NCBI GenBank assembly: GCA_021810505.1
Contig: JAJZIR010000004.1
Span: 1-64,000 of the forward strand
Direction of reading: 5' to 3'
Length of the DNA: 64,000 nt
Source: a bacterium
GTDB lineage: Bacteria > Deinococcota > Deinococci > Deinococcales > Deinococcaceae
The translations under genes and the position numbers were made by a program. The notes beneath the pieces were generated by a model, which was given only the letters and a program-made list of their open reading frames with translations, had not been told where the DNA came from and did no database searches. Below, one piece after another: positions 5,813 to 63,546 of this stretch (position 1 is its first letter; each line of letters opens with the position of its first letter).

Positions 5813-5850
5813 CCCAGCTGCGCCCTCTGAGCTCAGAGGGCGCAGCTGGG
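5813..5850. terminator. 38-bp perfect palindrome between convergent genes
   Basis: Nineteen bases on each side of the centre (5831/5832) are exactly complementary. It lies between the ends of the isomerase gene (5786) and the oppositely transcribed glycosidase gene (5861), as expected of a bidirectional terminator, but neither side has a clear T-run. It could act as a factor-assisted terminator or a mRNA 3'-end stabiliser. Confidence 0.5.
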
Positions 5851-5860
5851 CGGCTCAGGG

Positions 5861-7273
5861 TCAAGGAGCGCTGAGGACCACGACCGACCGGGCCGGAACC
5901 TTGAAGGCGGAGAGCGCGGAGAGCGGAAGCGAGGCGGTGCGCAGGGGATCTCGGGACCGGGCGGTAGCTGCGCCGTACCAGGTCAGCTGCACCGGGGTGG
6001 CGAAGGGGAGATCGACCGTGACCGCGTGGCTTGCGCCGTTCACGATCAGTTCCCGGCGGCGGGTGCCCTGCAGGGAGGCGAAGGCGAGCAGGTGGCCCCC
6101 CAAGCGGTGCAGGGCGATCAGGTGCGATCCGGGGGCGGCGAGCAAAGAGGCTAGACGGTAACCGTAGTAGGCCGGAAGCGGCCGGCCGGCCGGCGCTGGG
6201 TTCCCCGAAGAGAACATCCCGTAGTCCCCGTTCGCCGGCGACCCGTAGTTGTTCATGTCCCACCAGTCCACGCTCAGCGCTCCCTGGCTCAGCCACTCCA
6301 GGGCGGTAGCCGCCGCGTAGAGCGCGGTGATGGGCCGGAAGTCCAGGGGTGTCTCCTGGTTGGAGACGTTGGTCTCCCCTACCACCACGTGCGCGACCGG
6401 ATCGTAGCGGCGCAGGGTCTTGGTGATCCCGAGCATGACCCTAGGAATCCTGCGCACGCTGGCCAGGATCTCCTGATCGGTGAGCCCCTTCACCGGCGAG
6501 AAAGGGTACCAGTGCACGTCCACGAAGCTGGCCAGACCGCCCAGGCGGCGCAGCACCACCCGGTTCCACACCGCCGCCTGCTTGACCCCAGCACCGGCAG
6601 CCTGCGAGGGCCTGAGCGCCCAGGCCAGACCGATCTGGGCCGCGGGGTCGGCGCGCAGCATGGCCCGGAAGTAGGCGCCAGCGTGCGCAGCGTAGGAGCG
6701 GGCCATCACTTTGGTACCTGGGCAGACCTTGCCGTTGGGCTTAAAGCCCTTTATGAAGGTCGGGGCCTGAGCCAAGTGATCGTTGGCCTCCCAGCAGCCG
6801 TAGGACTCCTGGCCTACTTCCCAGAAAGTCACCTGCCTACCGGGTTGCTGGGAGGCAGCGACCCAGGAGGCGGCGAGCCGGGGGGAGCCGGAACCGTAGT
6901 TGACGGTCACGAAGCTCTGCGCACCGATGCTGTGGATCTGCTCGGTGAAGGTCTGAAAGTTCAGGGAATCGGTCTCCGGGCACTTGTTGCTGCTGCTGTG
7001 GACCAGGCACCCGTAGATATCGGTGTTCTTGCGCCAGTTGTACTCATCGGCCCAGGAACCACCCGGGTAGCGCAGCAGGCCGACCTGGGCGGCTGCCATG
7101 CTGCGGTCGATCGTCTGGGCCCCGCCGCCGGTGTACTCGCCGTCCCAGGAAGCGGTGTTCAAACCCAACGCGATCGGTGTGGTCACCACCGGGCGCGCTG
7201 CTAAGGCCAGAGAAGAGCTCGCCAACGCAGCGACCAATAAGGAGCAGCTCCAACCGGTAATCCGTTGCCTCAC
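5861..7273 (-). CDS. Secreted glycoside hydrolase, clan GH-A type (arabinofuranosidase-like)
   Basis: The 470-residue protein begins with a signal peptide (basic VRQR, hydrophobic core, ALA-A cleavage near residue 26). The rest looks like a clan GH-A barrel: a strand ending FVTVNYGSGS, the acid/base candidate Glu156 in WEVGQES, VHWYPF, and the nucleophile candidate Glu300 in VVVGETNVS, then a small beta domain. Annotated relatives are mostly called alpha-L-arabinofuranosidase; family number and substrate cannot be fixed by eye. The residue before the acid/base is Gln155, where clan GH-A nearly always has Asn. The GTG at 7273 is chosen because GGAGG lies just upstream and the signal peptide then starts correctly. 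It has its own promoter with an operator-like site. Confidence 0.72.
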   Translation of the reverse strand: MRQRITGWSCSLLVAALASSSLALAARPVVTTPIALGLNTASWDGEYTGGGAQTIDRSMAAAQVGLLRYPGGSWADEYNWRKNTDIYGCLVHSSSNKCPETDSLNFQTFTEQIHSIGAQSFVTVNYGSGSPRLAASWVAASQQPGRQVTFWEVGQESYGCWEANDHLAQAPTFIKGFKPNGKVCPGTKVMARSYAAHAGAYFRAMLRADPAAQIGLAWALRPSQAAGAGVKQAAVWNRVVLRRLGGLASFVDVHWYPFSPVKGLTDQEILASVRRIPRVMLGITKTLRRYDPVAHVVVGETNVSNQETPLDFRPITALYAAATALEWLSQGALSVDWWDMNNYGSPANGDYGMFSSGNPAPAGRPLPAYYGYRLASLLAAPGSHLIALHRLGGHLLAFASLQGTRRRELIVNGASHAVTVDLPFATPVQLTWYGAATARSRDPLRTASLPLSALSAFKVPARSVVVLSAP

Positions 7274-7285
7274 AGGTACCTCCTT

Positions 7286-7296
7286 GATTACTAAAC
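7286..7296. promoter_or_regulatory. Second copy of the operator-like palindrome
   Basis: On the minus strand this reads GTTTAGTAATC, 10 of 11 bases identical to the palindrome at 2615-2625. It lies immediately downstream of the -10 box of the glycosidase promoter, again a position suited to repression. This suggests that one LacI-family regulator controls both transcription units. Confidence 0.5.
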
Positions 7297-7297
7297 A

Positions 7298-7326
7298 AAC
7301 ATAATCTGATCCCGAGGAGCTGTCAA
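7298..7326 (-). promoter_or_regulatory. Promoter of the secreted glycosidase gene
   Basis: Minus strand: perfect TTGACA (7326-7321), 17-nt spacer, TATGTT (7303-7298). The start point should be near 7291, giving a leader of under 20 nt that carries the GGAGG ribosome site before the GTG at 7273. Confidence 0.65.
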
Positions 7327-7346
7327 GCAGGGAGAGCAGCCAGCCC

Positions 7347-7375
7347 TTGACAAATTCCATCCGGGTGGCTAGCAT
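7347..7375 (+). promoter_or_regulatory. Promoter of the ROK/sugar-utilisation operon
   Basis: Perfect TTGACA (7347-7352), 17-nt spacer, TAGCAT (7370-7375). It is back to back with the glycosidase promoter. Because transcription would start near 7382, the TTG at 7347 cannot be the ROK start codon; this supports the GTG at 7440. Confidence 0.55.
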
Positions 7376-7388
7376 GCTCTCTAGAGTT

Positions 7389-7405
7389 ATTTCTGAATCT
7401 GAAAT
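7389..7405. promoter_or_regulatory. Candidate ROK autoregulatory operator
   Basis: A 17-base near-palindrome with ATTTC/GAAAT arms (14 of 17 positions symmetrical) lies just after the ROK promoter start point, in the untranslated leader. NagC/Mlc-type ROK regulators bind AT-rich palindromes, so it may be the site through which the ROK protein represses its own operon. No second copy was noticed in the window. Confidence 0.35.
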
Positions 7406-7439
7406 ATATGGGGGTTCTTTCTTGGCCTATGGAGGCACC

Positions 7440-8579
7440 GTGCAGCCACTCACCGCCGCTCAGCAACGCGTCCTAGGTCTGCTCCACCGCAGGGGCAGGT
7501 TGTCCCGGCGCGCGGTTGCCCGGCAGCTGGGGGTCAGCCCTTCGGGGATCACCGAGGCGGTGGCCGGCCTGATCGCCGCCGGAGCAGTCCAGGAAGTCGC
7601 TCGGCGCAACGGGCCGGTGGGGAGGCCCTCTACGCTTCTGGACATCAACGAGGAGTTCGTCTACGCCGTCGGCGTGACCCTGGCCGGCGACGCCCTGCAC
7701 CCGGTCCTCATCGATCTGGCCGGGAACTTGGTGGATGAGCTCGCCAGGCCGTTCCCCAGCTGCAGCGCAGTGGGCTGCGTCCTGGAGAGCACCCGGGACG
7801 CCGTCTGGGAGCTGCTGCGGAAGCACCAGACCTTAACCGAGCGGGTCTGCGGGATCGGGATCGGCCTGACCGGTCTGGTGGACGGGGCCAGCTCGCTCTG
7901 CCGCCTCTCAGTGCAGCTGGGCTGGCAAGATCTCGACCTCGCCCCGCTGCTCAAGCAGCACTTCGCGCTCCCGGTCTTCGTGAGCAACGACGCCAACGCC
8001 CTGGCCCAAGCCGAGCACCTCTTCGGGGTCGGGAGGGACGAAGACCACTTGGTCGTCATCAGCACCCACCACGGGATCGGCGCCGGCCTGATCACCCAGG
8101 GTAACCTCTACGAGGGAGCTTGGGGATCTGCCGGGGAGATCGGGCACTTCAGCGTAGCCGGCGTAGACCGGCCCTGCTCCTGCGGGAAGTCAGGCTGCTT
8201 GGAGACGGTGGCCTCGCCGAGAGCCATCTTGGCCGAGCTGGCCCGGAGCGCAAGGCCCATGACCATCGAGCAGGCCAGCGCGGCGCTGACCGCGGGCGAT
8301 CCGGAAGTCCGCCGGATCGCCGAGGAAGCCGCTAGCGCCCTGGGCCTGGCGGTCAGCTACATCGCCGCCCTAGTGAACCCAGGAGCCATCGTCCTGTGCG
8401 GCTCCCCGCTGCACTGCAACCCCATCTTCGTGGAAGCGTTCCGGAGAGCGGCGCTGGCCCACACGCTGCCGGCCATCCACCCCCACACCAAGATCCTGGT
8501 CGACGCTGCCAGCGACCGGATCTGGTCGCGGGGGGCCGCCAGCCTGGCCCTGCGCCGCTTTCTAGGGGAGGTCAGATGA
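7440..8579 (+). CDS. ROK-family transcriptional regulator
   Basis: The 379-residue protein has an N-terminal winged helix (about residues 5-60, LSRRAVARQLGVSPSGITEAV) fused to a ROK sugar-kinase-like domain. The zinc site characteristic of ROK proteins is present as CSCGKSGCLE, preceded by GAGLITQGNLYEGAWGSAGEIGH. Members such as NagC, Mlc and XylR are sugar-responsive repressors. The GTG start at 7440 is preferred because GGAGG (7431-7435) precedes it and a promoter occupies the upstream alternative start. It overlaps the next gene by ATGA and heads a six-gene sugar operon. The effector is probably a hexose or its derivative; this is not visible in the sequence. Confidence 0.88.
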   Translation: MQPLTAAQQRVLGLLHRRGRLSRRAVARQLGVSPSGITEAVAGLIAAGAVQEVARRNGPVGRPSTLLDINEEFVYAVGVTLAGDALHPVLIDLAGNLVDELARPFPSCSAVGCVLESTRDAVWELLRKHQTLTERVCGIGIGLTGLVDGASSLCRLSVQLGWQDLDLAPLLKQHFALPVFVSNDANALAQAEHLFGVGRDEDHLVVISTHHGIGAGLITQGNLYEGAWGSAGEIGHFSVAGVDRPCSCGKSGCLETVASPRAILAELARSARPMTIEQASAALTAGDPEVRRIAEEAASALGLAVSYIAALVNPGAIVLCGSPLHCNPIFVEAFRRAALAHTLPAIHPHTKILVDAASDRIWSRGAASLALRRFLGEVR

Positions 8580-9412
8580 ACAGCTTTTCGGTCAACGGTT
8601 GGGCTTTCCCCAGCGATTGGAGCTCGCAGCGCCGGCTGGAAGTGGCCAGCCGCTTGGGGTACCAGGGCGTGGAGCTCTGCCTGGAAGCGGAAGGGGAGTT
8701 CGGCTTGGAGCAGCCGCTCAGCGCGGTAGAGAAGCTGGGGCGGGCCGCCCGGGCCAACGGGCTGCAGGTGACCGGCCTAGCTTGCGGGCTGTACTGGCAG
8801 CACTCGCTCAGCGCCAGCAACCCGGCAGCCCGGGAGCGGGCCCTGGGCATCTTAAAAACCCAGGTCCGCTGGGCCGCTGCGCTCCAGGCTGAGGCCGCCC
8901 TGGTGGTCCCAGGTGCCGTCTTGGTGCCCTGGGACGCCCGCAGCGAGCTGGTGCGCTACCAAGACGTCGGGCAGAGGGTCGCGGACGCCATCCGCGCGGT
9001 CGCGCAGGAAGCGCGCAGCCTGGGGGTCCTGCTCTGCCTGGAGAACGTCTGGAACGGCTTCCTGCAGAGCCCCTTGGAGATGGCCGAGTTCATCGACCAG
9101 TTGGGGGAACCGGTACGGGCCTATTTCGACATCGGCAACGTGGTGCGAACCGGCTTCCCCGAGGACTGGATCCTCACTCTGGGGGCGCGGATCGCCAGGG
9201 TCCACGCCAAGGACTACCGCAGGAGCGCGGGCACCCTGGACGGCTTCGTCCCCCTGCTCGCCGGCGACGTGCATTGGGCGGGCGTTCGGGAAGCGCTCTT
9301 TCGGATAGGCTACCAGGGTCCTATCACCGCTGAGTACCTGCCGCCGTTCCGCGAGCACCCCGAGCTGCTGCTGCAGTCCACCCTGGCCAGCCTGAAGGCG
9401 GTCTTCGCGTGA
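8576..9412 (+). CDS. Sugar phosphate isomerase/epimerase, AP-endonuclease-2-type TIM barrel
   Basis: The 278-residue protein is a xylose-isomerase-like TIM barrel. Probable metal ligands are a Glu in LCLENVWNG, an Asp in AYFDIGNV, a His in RVHAKDY and a Glu in ITAEYLP, the arrangement seen in D-tagatose/D-psicose 3-epimerases and hexulose-phosphate isomerases. It starts at the ATG overlapping the ROK stop (ATGA) and overlaps the next gene by GTGA. Paired with a Gfo/Idh/MocA dehydrogenase and an ABC importer, it probably epimerises or isomerises an oxidised sugar, as in inositol-like or keto-sugar pathways. The exact substrate is unknown. Confidence 0.82.
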   Translation: MNSFSVNGWAFPSDWSSQRRLEVASRLGYQGVELCLEAEGEFGLEQPLSAVEKLGRAARANGLQVTGLACGLYWQHSLSASNPAARERALGILKTQVRWAAALQAEAALVVPGAVLVPWDARSELVRYQDVGQRVADAIRAVAQEARSLGVLLCLENVWNGFLQSPLEMAEFIDQLGEPVRAYFDIGNVVRTGFPEDWILTLGARIARVHAKDYRRSAGTLDGFVPLLAGDVHWAGVREALFRIGYQGPITAEYLPPFREHPELLLQSTLASLKAVFA

Positions 9413-15432: not shown

Positions 15433-18246
15433 CTACCCGATTTGCTCGGGATCGGCAGCGAAGGCAGCTGGTAACGAGCTGCCAGCCGCGCGGAGGCCAC
15501 CCAGGACGAGCAAGCCACCAGGGTGCAGGTCGCCCAGGCGGCGCGCGAACTCCGCCTCCAACTGCTCGGGAAGATCTTGGTCTTGCGGCGCTAAGGGCTC
15601 GACTCCGCTTCCGTCCCCCTGGGCCGGCTGGCTGAGCCAGTTCAGCCAGCTCTCCGGGTTGAACTGCAGCGCACCGCCCTCAGTACGGACCGCCACCAGG
15701 TAGTCCTCGCGCAGCACCGTTCCCGAGAGGTCCTGGAAGCGGAGCAAGGCCGCTACCGCTGAGCGGAAAGCGAGCTGATCGGCGCGGACTACCAGGGCGC
15801 CAGGATCCCAACTGGAAGCTAGTTTAAGCAGGCTGCGCAGCGGCTCCGCAGCCACATCGAGCCGCCGGACGCCTCTCAGCCGGGCTCTGGAGCTATCCGC
15901 GCTGAGGTAATGGTTCTCCCGCAACCCCAAGCGCTTAGCCACCTCTTGGGGCAAAGTCAACCGGTAGATCCCCTTGCCATGCAGCTGGTACGAGCCCCCC
16001 AGGCGGGCAGCCATACCGCGCAGGAAAGCGTGGACATGAGAGATCCCCAGCTGCAGAGCGCTGTTCCAACGCCCCCTATCGAAGTGGCTGGCGTATTGGA
16101 GCAAGTCCCGCCCCGCGCGCACGATCTCCCTAGCCTCCTGGATGGCAGCCTCGATCTGCGCATCGGTGCGCTGGTCTTCTCGGAACGCGGCGGACTCCCA
16201 GACCCGTTCCAGCTGCGCGGCTCCTACCAGCTCGCCCAGCACGTCCTCAACCAGCACCTCGGGGGCGTAGTCGCCAGGTGCAACCTGAGACAGGTCCCGG
16301 GCTACCTGGTCTAGCCGCTCATACATGACCGCCAGAACCTGCTCATCTAGGCGCTCCGGAACGCTCAGGTTGACGACCAGAACGGGTTGGCTCTGACCGT
16401 AGCGGTAGAGCCGGCCGACCCGCTGGAGCAAGCGCATGGGATTCCAAGGGAGGTCGTAGTTGATCATCTGCCAGCAACGCCGGTGCAGGTTGAGACCCTC
16501 CCCGCCGGCCTCGGTGGCGATGAGGATTCTAGCTTCGCCCTCGAAGCGGCTGGTCGCCTGCCGCCGCTGCTCCAAATCCATCGATCCGTTGAGCAGGGCG
16601 ACCTTCCCGGGGTAGAGCGGCTCCAGGGCAGCCTGCAGGTAATCCTGTGTCCCACGGTATTCCGTGAAGATCAGCAGCTTGCTCTCCTCTCCCAGCAGGG
16701 CGTTCTGGACAGCTTCTAGGAAGAAACGCAGCTTGGAGTCTCCCTTGATCCCGAGGAGTTGCTGCCCTCGTTGGAGCAGTTCCTCCAGGAGTTCTTGCTC
16801 CCCGCGGAAGAATTCGGGGATCCGCTCCTGCAAAACTCTCTGCTCTTCGGACTCGACGAAGCGGTCGTCGAAGCTCGCTTCTGGGCTAGGCAGATACGCG
16901 CCGGGTCCCTTAGGCTCGCGGAGCAGGCGATCTTGGCGGCGCTGCAGCGCCGCCAAGATCGCCTGCTGGCTGGAAGTAGCCAGCTTGCGGTAGGTGGTCA
17001 TCACGAAACCGATCGCTCTCCCCCTAGCCTCTGCGCCGTCTCGCTGAGCGACGGAGAAGCCTTGCCGCAGGTAGCGGTGCATCTTCCCGTCGAAGTCCAG
17101 CTCAGCCAAGCTGAGCTGGACTTCGACAGTCTTCGTTGTTTTCCCCTTGAACAGGGGTTGGCCAGCGTGGTCCACCACTTCAGCCTTACGGTTGCGCAAG
17201 ACCATCTGGGCCAACAACCCCGGCTGAGCTCTGATCTGAATCAGCCGGGACCTCTCGGCCGGTCCAGGCCTCAGCAGCTCGAGCAGGCCACGGAACTGGT
17301 CGTCCTTGCCCTGATGTGGCGTCCCGCTGAGCAGGATCAGGCGGTCGGTCTGGCGGCGCAACTGCTCCGCCAGACGATAGCGCTCGGTCAGCGCGTAGCG
17401 CTGGTCACCGACTTCGTGGCGGGTCAAGCGGTGGGCCTCGTCGAAGGCGATGAGGTCCCAGCGCCCCGAATCTGCTACCAAGCTGCGGTGCGGCTCCGAC
17501 TTGAGCAGGTCCAGCGGCGCGATCACCTGGTCGTAGCGCAGCCACTGGCGGCTATCCGAAATGCGCATGTCCTGGCCGAGAATCACGAAATCCTCCATGC
17601 CGAACTTGTCGGAGAGATCTTCCTTCCACTGGCGGGTCAGGCCCGAGGGAACCACCAGCAGGAAACGGTGCAAGCCAGCTCCACCCCGCAAGGCGTGGAG
17701 CAACAGGCCCAGCTCGATGGTCTTGCCCAAACCGACGTCATCGGCCAACAGCCAGTTGAGGTTGCCGGAGTCGAGGATGCGCTGCACCGTTTGGATCTGG
17801 TGCGGGACCGGATCGACGTTGAGGGCCGAGGCCATCCCGCTGACTTGGGACCAGCTGGAGATGGCGTGGGCGAGCTGCCGGAGCCGAAAGGCCTCGGCGT
17901 TCCCGGAGGCAAACCCCCTGCGCCACAGCTCGTCAGGCGGAACAGTTGCAGCGAGGTCCTGCCAGGGCAACCAGACCAGCTGGGGGCCCTCCCAGAATTC
18001 GACCAAGACCTGCTCGCGTCCGGCCAGCTCCCGGGAGTCGCGCACCCAGCCCAGCCCCCGGGCCGGACCCGAGGTCTCCAGGACCGGCATCCCCGGCTGC
18101 AGCCCGCAGAGCAAGCTGTCCGCCCGCTGGCGCCGGGAAGCGCTCTCCCCTTTCCAGATGACGTAGGCCCACTCGGCATCGGCCCCCTCGACCCAGCCGG
18201 GAAGGCCGCTCGCGGAGCGCACCAAAGCGCCGCGCGCCAGAATCAC
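15433..18246 (-). CDS. SNF2/RapA-type DEAD/DEAH-box helicase
   Basis: The 937-residue superfamily 2 helicase has Walker A in DDVGLGKT (Lys175), DEAH at 269-272, SGTPHQ motif III (about 307), and in the second RecA domain ATEAGGEGLNLH and QRVGRLYRYGQ. A C-terminal region of about 300 residues is unassigned. The layout resembles RapA-like ATPases and the DrmD helicase of DISARM, but no DISARM partner gene (drmA, drmB, drmC or the methyltransferase) is nearby. GTG at 18246 is the chosen start because it overlaps the upstream stop as GTGA and the protein then begins ILARGALVRS; the frame is open further upstream. The gene contains two very long perfect inverted repeats (16922-16967 and 17089-17127). 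Confidence 0.85.
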   Translation of the reverse strand: MILARGALVRSASGLPGWVEGADAEWAYVIWKGESASRRQRADSLLCGLQPGMPVLETSGPARGLGWVRDSRELAGREQVLVEFWEGPQLVWLPWQDLAATVPPDELWRRGFASGNAEAFRLRQLAHAISSWSQVSGMASALNVDPVPHQIQTVQRILDSGNLNWLLADDVGLGKTIELGLLLHALRGGAGLHRFLLVVPSGLTRQWKEDLSDKFGMEDFVILGQDMRISDSRQWLRYDQVIAPLDLLKSEPHRSLVADSGRWDLIAFDEAHRLTRHEVGDQRYALTERYRLAEQLRRQTDRLILLSGTPHQGKDDQFRGLLELLRPGPAERSRLIQIRAQPGLLAQMVLRNRKAEVVDHAGQPLFKGKTTKTVEVQLSLAELDFDGKMHRYLRQGFSVAQRDGAEARGRAIGFVMTTYRKLATSSQQAILAALQRRQDRLLREPKGPGAYLPSPEASFDDRFVESEEQRVLQERIPEFFRGEQELLEELLQRGQQLLGIKGDSKLRFFLEAVQNALLGEESKLLIFTEYRGTQDYLQAALEPLYPGKVALLNGSMDLEQRRQATSRFEGEARILIATEAGGEGLNLHRRCWQMINYDLPWNPMRLLQRVGRLYRYGQSQPVLVVNLSVPERLDEQVLAVMYERLDQVARDLSQVAPGDYAPEVLVEDVLGELVGAAQLERVWESAAFREDQRTDAQIEAAIQEAREIVRAGRDLLQYASHFDRGRWNSALQLGISHVHAFLRGMAARLGGSYQLHGKGIYRLTLPQEVAKRLGLRENHYLSADSSRARLRGVRRLDVAAEPLRSLLKLASSWDPGALVVRADQLAFRSAVAALLRFQDLSGTVLREDYLVAVRTEGGALQFNPESWLNWLSQPAQGDGSGVEPLAPQDQDLPEQLEAEFARRLGDLHPGGLLVLGGLRAAGSSLPAAFAADPEQIG
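16922..16967. repeat. 46-bp perfect palindrome inside the helicase gene
   Basis: Twenty-three bases on each side of the centre at 16944/16945 (core CTGCAG) are exactly complementary. It encodes part of the region between the two RecA lobes (around AILAALQRRQDRLL). Twenty-three consecutive matching pairs is far outside chance for a coding sequence. Confidence 0.9.
17089..17127. repeat. 18-bp perfect inverted repeat with 3-nt loop inside the helicase gene
   Basis: Arms 17089-17106 and 17110-17127 are perfectly complementary, with CAA between them. It lies 121 bp from the 46-bp palindrome and encodes the segment around VEVQLSLAELDFDG. Confidence 0.9.
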
Positions 18247-19130
18247 CGCGCCCCCGCTTCTCTGGACGCCCCAGAGCGCCGACCCCAAGCGCGCGCCGCC
18301 GCCGACTCGCCGGCCAGCGGCGGGTAGAGCGGTTTCTGGCAGAGCCAAGCTAGGTGGTCATCTAGGCCCGGGCAAAACTCCAAGAGGTCGCTGAGCGCCA
18401 AGCCGCTGAAGCCGGCCTCGCTCCCCCAGAGCTCCAGGTCAGCCGCCCTGGATAGCAGTTCTTCCTCAATCGAGGCGGTATCTCCCGGCCCAGCGCGGCG
18501 CAGCCAGCCCAAAACCAGCTCCCAGGGAAAGCTATCCGAAGACCACTGCGGCTCCGAGAAGATCCGGAAAGCATGGCGGCCCAATTCCGGGTGGCTCTCC
18601 CAAAAATCGCGCAGGACCAACAGATCCTCGAACTCTCTGGGGCTGAGCGGCGCCAACCGGGCGACGCTGCGCTGCAGCGGCAGCCGCAACCGAGGGGGCG
18701 TCCCCTGCAGCAGGCCGGTCAACAGCGAGAGGGCGTCTAGGTCCTCCTGCCACCCCAGCTGGGCGGCCAGCTCAGCTGCGCCCTTCTGGGCAGAGCGGCT
18801 GAGCACCTCGGGGTCAGCGGCGGGGGAGGGCTGTAAGCTCGCTAGGGCCCAAGGGGTGAACCAGAAATCTCCTGGGAGCCGAGGTCTCGGCTCCCAGGAG
18901 AGCAGCAGGGTACGGCTGAGCTCGCCCTGGCGGGCGGCGCCTAACCCGCTCGGAGCAGGGCGCCACGCCTCTTCCGGCAAGAGCGGGCGCCCCCTTTCCG
19001 CGAGGGCGCCGGCCGGCGCCCGCTCTTCCCCCTCCGCGTCGCCGTGGGGATCTGTGCCCAGAGGTCTCCCAGCCATCCTCTCCCAGTTCTCGGTGTCCAT
19101 GGCGGGCAGCTTAGCTGAGAAGCGCGTCAT
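18243..19130 (-). CDS. Unknown protein encoded upstream of the SNF2 helicase
   Basis: I do not recognise this 295-residue protein. The first 70 or so residues are polar and low in structure; the rest is rich in Leu, Trp and charged residues and looks helical, with tracts such as GDFWFTPWALASLQP, EFEDLLVLRDFWESHPELGRHAF and GLALSDLLEFCPGLDDHLAWL. There is no signal peptide or membrane segment. It overlaps the helicase start by GTGA, so the two proteins are coupled and may act together. GGGAG lies about 8 nt before the ATG at 19130; an internal ATG (MDTENWERM) is an alternative. The gene contains a 16-bp perfect hairpin (18868-18901) and a long interrupted repeat (18979-19027). Confidence 0.7.
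   Translation of the reverse strand: MTRFSAKLPAMDTENWERMAGRPLGTDPHGDAEGEERAPAGALAERGRPLLPEEAWRPAPSGLGAARQGELSRTLLLSWEPRPRLPGDFWFTPWALASLQPSPAADPEVLSRSAQKGAAELAAQLGWQEDLDALSLLTGLLQGTPPRLRLPLQRSVARLAPLSPREFEDLLVLRDFWESHPELGRHAFRIFSEPQWSSDSFPWELVLGWLRRAGPGDTASIEEELLSRAADLELWGSEAGFSGLALSDLLEFCPGLDDHLAWLCQKPLYPPLAGESAAARAWGRRSGASREAGAR
18868..18901. repeat. 16-bp perfect inverted repeat with 2-nt loop in the unknown gene
   Basis: Arms 18868-18883 and 18886-18901 are exactly complementary. The repeat encodes residues around LLSWEPRPRLPGDF. Confidence 0.88.
18979..19027. repeat. Nested inverted repeats in the unknown gene
   Basis: Thirteen-base arms 18979-18991 and 19015-19027 are perfectly complementary. 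Partly overlapping them is an 18-bp GC-only palindrome (19004-19021). Confidence 0.75.
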
Positions 19131-57235: not shown

Positions 57236-57243
57236 GTCGCTTC

Positions 57244-57284
57244 CGCTGGCAGGGCCGGGGACTCCGGCCCTGCCAGCGGGTTTT
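57244..57284. terminator. Rho-independent terminator between satP and galT
   Basis: A 15-bp perfect stem (57244-57258 with 57264-57278) is followed on the plus strand by GGGTTTT, the classical form for the acs-satP transcript. The convergent galT gene ends inside the element (stop at 57283-57285), so it may also help to end that transcript. Confidence 0.8.
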
Positions 57285-63508: not shown

Positions 63509-63546
63509 CATATAAAAGGTATGGAGCCCGGTCGGGCTCCATACCT
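63509..63546 (-). terminator. Rho-independent terminator of the aminotransferase gene
   Basis: A 14-bp perfect stem with 2-nt loop (63517-63530 and 63533-63546) is followed on the minus strand by TTTTATAT. It lies 19 nt after the aminotransferase stop codon (63566). Confidence 0.8.

Follow-up and report, generated by a model that had tools for sequence, protein, structure and literature searches.

The two long perfect inverted repeats in an SNF2-type helicase gene of a Deinococcales bacterium (source genome G000) probably stem from template-switch mutation (quasipalindrome correction, or sequence-directed mutagenesis), which would occur in a lineage-specific excess throughout the genome. This is supported by an excess of such repeats over a codon-aware null, the collinear replacement of sequence, the loss of conserved PurH residues in the direction set by the other arm, a bias towards loop 0 and the small number of one-mismatch relics. 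The helicase is not special, its two palindromes being among many across the genome, in ordinary genes. RpoB places the organism in the Deinococcota, order Deinococcales, where two MAGs named 'Deinococcales bacterium' come closest among the named records (81% identity).

Perfect Inverted Repeats in the Helicase Gene and the Surrounding Window

The SNF2/DEAD-type helicase gene lies on the minus strand at positions 15433–18348 of the window (the whole 64-kb stretch of DNA analysed), and this single ORF of 971 codons contains both palindromes. A domain search found SNF2-rel and Helicase_C domains in its product, the best PADLOC profile match of which is to BrxHI-type helicases; it is similar to the defence helicases BrxHI and DrmD. 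No relatives turned up in a genome scan that used the helicase protein as query.

A repeat search of the assembly confirmed to the base the two inverted repeats reported in the initial annotation. The first is a 46-bp perfect palindrome (16922–16967) with 23-bp arms (16922–16944 and 16945–16967, 100% matched) and loop 0. It is codon-in-register, with codon positions 1 and 3 pairing with each other and position 2 with position 2, and encodes QQAILAAL/QRRQDRLL, which is aligned to the conserved AIxxxLxRRxxRL motif of the homologues. The second (17089–17127) has 18-bp arms (17089–17106 and 17110–17127, 100% matched) around a 3-nt loop, is also codon-in-register and encodes VEVQLS-L-AELDFD. The longest arm in 2000 synonymous-codon shuffles of the helicase gene had a median of 9, a 99th percentile of 14 and a maximum of 19 bp. 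The 23-bp arm is thus longer than in any shuffle, and the earlier claim that it cannot be chance stands.

Folding of the helicase mRNA segment with both palindromes gave −141 kcal/mol, compared to −97 kcal/mol for shuffles (z −8.9). Such a strong fold could possibly affect expression, and nothing indicates selection on it. It would nevertheless fit an explanation in which the palindromes are kept by selection, as mRNA hairpins, cruciforms, terminators or protein-binding sites. Against this, no T-run follows either helicase palindrome on the gene strand and both lie mid-gene, so that neither has the features of an intrinsic terminator.

The closest full-length homologues of the helicase, which cover both palindrome sites, are on Deinococcus plasmids (44% identity), where a large hypothetical gene lies directly upstream of them. 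The Deinococcus homologue L325 aligns gap-free at both sites and shows only partial symmetry (5/19 and 12/23 pairs). The homologue L002 (41% identical) is near-palindromic in the outer part (VEV...DF) of the 17089–17127 site (10/19 pairs); the alignments of L002 and L326 have small gaps close to the palindrome sites. These partial symmetries, 12/23 in Deinococcus aquaticus and 10/19 in L002, look like quasipalindrome precursors, which suggests from the alignments that the conserved AIxxxLxRRxxRL and VEV...DF motifs can already form rough palindromes, apparently perfected here.

The window contains further repeats of this kind. Two are coding: one with 16-bp arms and loop 2 (18868–18901), in the minus-strand ORF 18243–19130 upstream of the helicase, and one with 14-bp arms and loop 8 (2734–2769). 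Three are intergenic, namely a 38-bp perfect palindrome with 19-bp arms and loop 0 (5813–5850), a terminator-like repeat with 16-bp arms and loop 5 (57243–57279), both between convergent genes, and a repeat with 14-bp arms and loop 2 (63517–63546). The palindrome at 5813–5850 is of the same class as those of the helicase and could double as a terminator; it and the repeat at 57243–57279 may act as bidirectional terminators.

Genome-Wide Excess of Coding Palindromes

We analysed 835 kb (36%) of G000, the window included. Genes were called with a purpose-made simple dicodon model, inverted repeats were scored with perfect arms and loops of 0–20, and synonymous-codon shuffles, which preserve the protein and codon use, served as the null model. 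In about 737 kb of CDS, there were 37 coding perfect inverted repeats with arms of at least 14 bp, compared to 0.5 expected by shuffle, and 21 with arms of at least 16 bp, compared to 0.1 expected. Counted over genes and intergenic DNA together, the 835 kb contain ~71 perfect hairpins whose arms measure at least 14 bp, roughly half of which are genic. The published surveys of inverted repeats (PMC10434271, PMC4060949) differ in their parameters, and no numerical baseline was taken from them.

The controls were four complete or near-complete genomes of the same order (G005, G008, G013 and G025, 160 kb each) and E. coli K-12 (200 kb). They yielded a single coding repeat with arms of at least 14 bp in 704 kb of CDS (Fisher p ~4e-10 against G000); the density of coding repeats with 14–23 bp arms in G000, 50 per Mb of coding DNA, is ~35 times that of the pooled controls. 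The family member G001 is moderately enriched, with five coding repeats in 230 kb (22 per Mb), an effect weaker than that in G000, and no coding repeat with arms of at least 14 bp was found in the small sample (95 kb) of the family members G002 and G003. That high GC and codon use produced the repeats by chance is hardly conceivable: the genome has a GC content of 66–67% and its codon mix favours in-register self-complementarity, but the shuffles give 0.5 against the 37 observed, and relatives of similar GC yield 0–1 such repeats each.

Besides the helicase gene, palindromes are borne by ordinary genes such as those for PurH, GlgA and a GatA-like amidase, and these genes are functionally unrelated. 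The initial annotation had hinted at a link to a helicase that may process such structures, for which we found no support, as the palindromes occur in these other genes too.

Homologous Sites Are Collinear and Asymmetric

The PurH gene (L211 15462–17054) carries a 34-bp palindrome (L211 15668–15701), a site that aligns gap-free with 24/24 relatives, none of which is symmetric. The motif TGFPE is present in 23 of the 24 aligned relatives (TGSPE in the remaining one), and in G000 it reads TGQAE. The new codons, CAG GCC, complement an upstream GGCCTG and lie in an arm that pairs without mismatch with the upstream one, so that, in this comparison with order-wide relatives, none of them close, the change from FP to QA is exactly the one that a reverse-complement copy of the opposite arm would give. 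The GlgA site is gap-free with its two closest homologues, which are not symmetric, and has small gaps in many more distant ones. In GlgA and the GatA-like amidase, which has two palindromes, segments have been replaced and yet are collinear with the homologues. The two palindromes of the amidase lie near the gene start (L202 1126–1202), 17 bp apart, with loop 0 and arms of 14 and 16 bp; they are clustered as in the helicase.

Across the helicase, PurH, GlgA and GatA sites, only 2–12 of the 14–23 pairs are complementary in the homologues, whereas all pairs are complementary in G000. Length and register are kept, with no arm-sized insertion in the nearest homologues and small gaps in other rows. 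Since the homologues, where they align well, match across the palindromes with few or no gaps and without symmetry, codons were overwritten and no element was inserted. The insertion into genes of a palindromic repeat element (a Rickettsia palindromic element, REP or MITE-like) is accordingly very improbable. Such elements do occur inside Rickettsia reading frames (discussed in PMC6649704), but here the best homologue alignments contain no palindrome-length insertion, and the arms form no repeat family, as no arm sequence was shared between sites in the 835 kb except in a single tandem duplication and one further match.

These comparisons also bear on the interpretations listed in the initial annotation, namely cruciforms, imperfect palindromes repaired by template switching, a binding site and control of the mRNA. 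Template switching is favoured by the homologues without symmetry, by the genome-wide occurrence and by the PurH changes that follow the opposite arm, while a binding site is disfavoured, as the arms share no sequence. The same annotation held that a one-off or an artefact would be indicated if homologues had the same protein without the symmetry; such homologues were found, but the palindromes are no one-off, since dozens of other genes are affected likewise.

Structural Signatures of the Palindromes

Loop 0 is the mode among the long repeats (15/37 coding cases with arms of at least 14 bp), and its share increases from 6–8% at arms of 6–9 bp to 40% at arms of at least 14 bp. These gapless repeats lack the loop of at least 3 nt of an intramolecular hairpin. 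This argues against the selected structures considered above, as RNA hairpins need a loop, and so do the lack of an arm sequence common to the sites, the asymmetric homologues and the unrelated genes. In favour of selection, besides the helicase mRNA fold, are the higher intergenic density and the fact that some palindromes lie where terminators would be expected, in the gap between convergent genes. A codon-phase bias was discarded as a sign of selection, since the codon-phase mix of the long repeats is nearly the same as that of chance hairpins. Taken together, we regard selection for structure as rather improbable, and template switching as the better explanation of the palindromes.

Repeats with one mismatch are barely in excess (7, compared to 3.8 expected) beside 27 perfect ones. 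So few imperfect relics are to be expected only if the events are very recent, if re-correction is continuous or if the repeats are an artefact. An artefact would mean that one arm was replaced in the assembly by the reverse complement of the other, either because fragment ends paired with themselves at palindromes when the library was made or because the consensus went wrong at quasipalindromes. Chimeric reads with palindromes or inverted repeats have indeed been described after enzymatic or sonication fragmentation (PMC10908179), and the scarce near-perfect relics, the replacement of strongly conserved residues (e.g., FP to QA in PurH) and the lack of an extra protein-level filter in the codon-phase mix would all be in line with this. 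However, the artefact reads described in the literature occur at low frequency and are soft-clipped foldbacks, and they should neither reach the consensus nor rejoin the original strand in register. Per base, palindromes with loop 0/1 are also 6.6-fold rarer inside genes (17/738 kb) than outside (16/106 kb, p = 5e-7), which is unexpected of an artefact unless the intergenic substrate differs. The ORFs are open through the listed coding cases, though these were selected as lying inside ORFs, and G001, a second genome of the family, shows a weaker effect.

A tandem duplication in L050 bears on the same question. Its 417-bp copies (7167–7583 and 8797–9213) are 99.3% identical, with three differences, and although separately assembled, both carry the same 35-bp palindrome with 17-bp arms, one of the three differences being the centre base (G to C). 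The inverted centre is as would be expected from spacer inversion by analogy with yeast template switching (PMC8604942), and a chance transversion could also give this change. On balance, an artefact seems unlikely as the origin of the palindromes, and we favour template switching.

A Template-Switch Model and the Search for Its Cause

Template switching could produce these palindromes as follows. During replication or repair, a nascent 3′ end would unpair at a short chance palindrome and anneal to a complementary copy, either on its own strand folded back or on the opposite strand. It would copy that arm for ~10–20 nt and then rejoin the original template in register, such that the reverse complement of one arm overwrites the other. 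Length and reading frame would be preserved, amino acids would be altered only where the arms had disagreed, and seeding would occur mainly at short gapless palindromes. The agent is presumed to be a polymerase template switch. We infer that the switch is often inter-strand, because loop 0 dominates although a hairpin loop could not serve as template for its own centre. In its strongest form, the model has template switching so active that perfect palindromes of 28–46 bp continually form and stay perfect throughout the genome, rewriting conserved housekeeping residues by inter-strand switches seeded at gapless palindromes, which would make G000 a bacterial counterpart of nematomorph mitochondrial genomes; we put this forward only tentatively.

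We then looked at repair genes as a possible cause. MutS1 and MutL were not found in G000, where the search turned up nothing beyond a MutS2-like protein and two ORFs related to MutS (contig C3). Loss of MutS1/MutL mismatch repair may let mismatched template-switch products survive. The two proteins are also missing from relatives such as G009, G013 and G023. Their loss is consistent with the excess in G000 but not a sufficient cause: G013 and G023, on which the comparison of mismatch-repair-lacking relatives rests, are without both and not enriched, while G001 has both MutS1 and MutL, and yet is moderately enriched; no tested gene therefore accounts for the excess.

The loss of SbcCD is unsupported, as SbcD, the subunit looked for, is present in G000. 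Loss of RecJ is ruled out by its presence, and loss of ExoI is not explanatory, as ExoI is absent from all 41 genomes of the order sample. ExoVII loss is likewise ruled out, XseA being above the family cut-off in both enriched genomes. Among the 41 genomes, the exonuclease VII large subunit is above the cut-off only in G000 (L298, G000:C26:332–1456) and G001 (L297, G001:C8), two cases that may be a coincidence. High template switching is seen in recB mutants of E. coli (PMC6357072).

Comparison with Known Systems

Mutation by template switching at quasipalindromes is usually rare, and its occurrence is inferred from reporters. We estimate ~100 long perfect palindromes in the genes of G000 (extrapolated from the 36% sampled), which would make it a natural hypermutator for this class. 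If true, such a genome could reveal the replication or repair function that restrains switching and the balance between inter- and intra-strand events, and would show to what extent proteins are shaped by templated replacements of several residues. Should the palindromes be an artefact instead, they would alert users of public genomes to errors in coding sequences.

The mutational process itself is known, while the unusual intensity at which it would act in G000, pending read support, is not. Quasipalindrome-associated template-switch mutation, or sequence-directed mutagenesis (Ripley 1982), has been studied in E. coli by the Lovett group (PMC6357072, PMC7202029). As in that process, one arm would serve as template for the other, turning an imperfect inverted repeat into a perfect one. 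In bacterial coding DNA, short inverted repeats are known to be in small excess (Ladoukakis and Eyre-Walker, as discussed in PMC4060949). Unlike that excess, with arms of 6–9 bp, the arms in G000 are 14–23 bp long and the mode is loop 0, not a hairpin loop.

Rickettsia palindromic elements are repeated, inserted elements. The G000 palindromes resemble them in lying within bacterial reading frames but differ in that their sequences are unique and no insertion is seen. As in Saccharomyces cerevisiae (PMC8604942), homogenisation of the arms would lead to neighbouring amino-acid replacements and may be joined by spacer inversion; the yeast cases are strain-specific events in 39 genes, whereas those in G000 are standing perfect palindromes, dense within one genome. 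Mitochondrial genes of Nematomorpha (PMC6649704) likewise carry perfect inverted repeats in many unrelated genes with both arms protein-coding, show no notable excess of imperfect repeats (an all-or-nothing pattern) and disfavour one codon phase, and their coding palindromes have been explained by repeat conversion or template switching (PMC6649704). In contrast to that animal mtDNA, where repeats reach 284 bp, G000 is a bacterial chromosome with palindromes of up to 46–54 bp.
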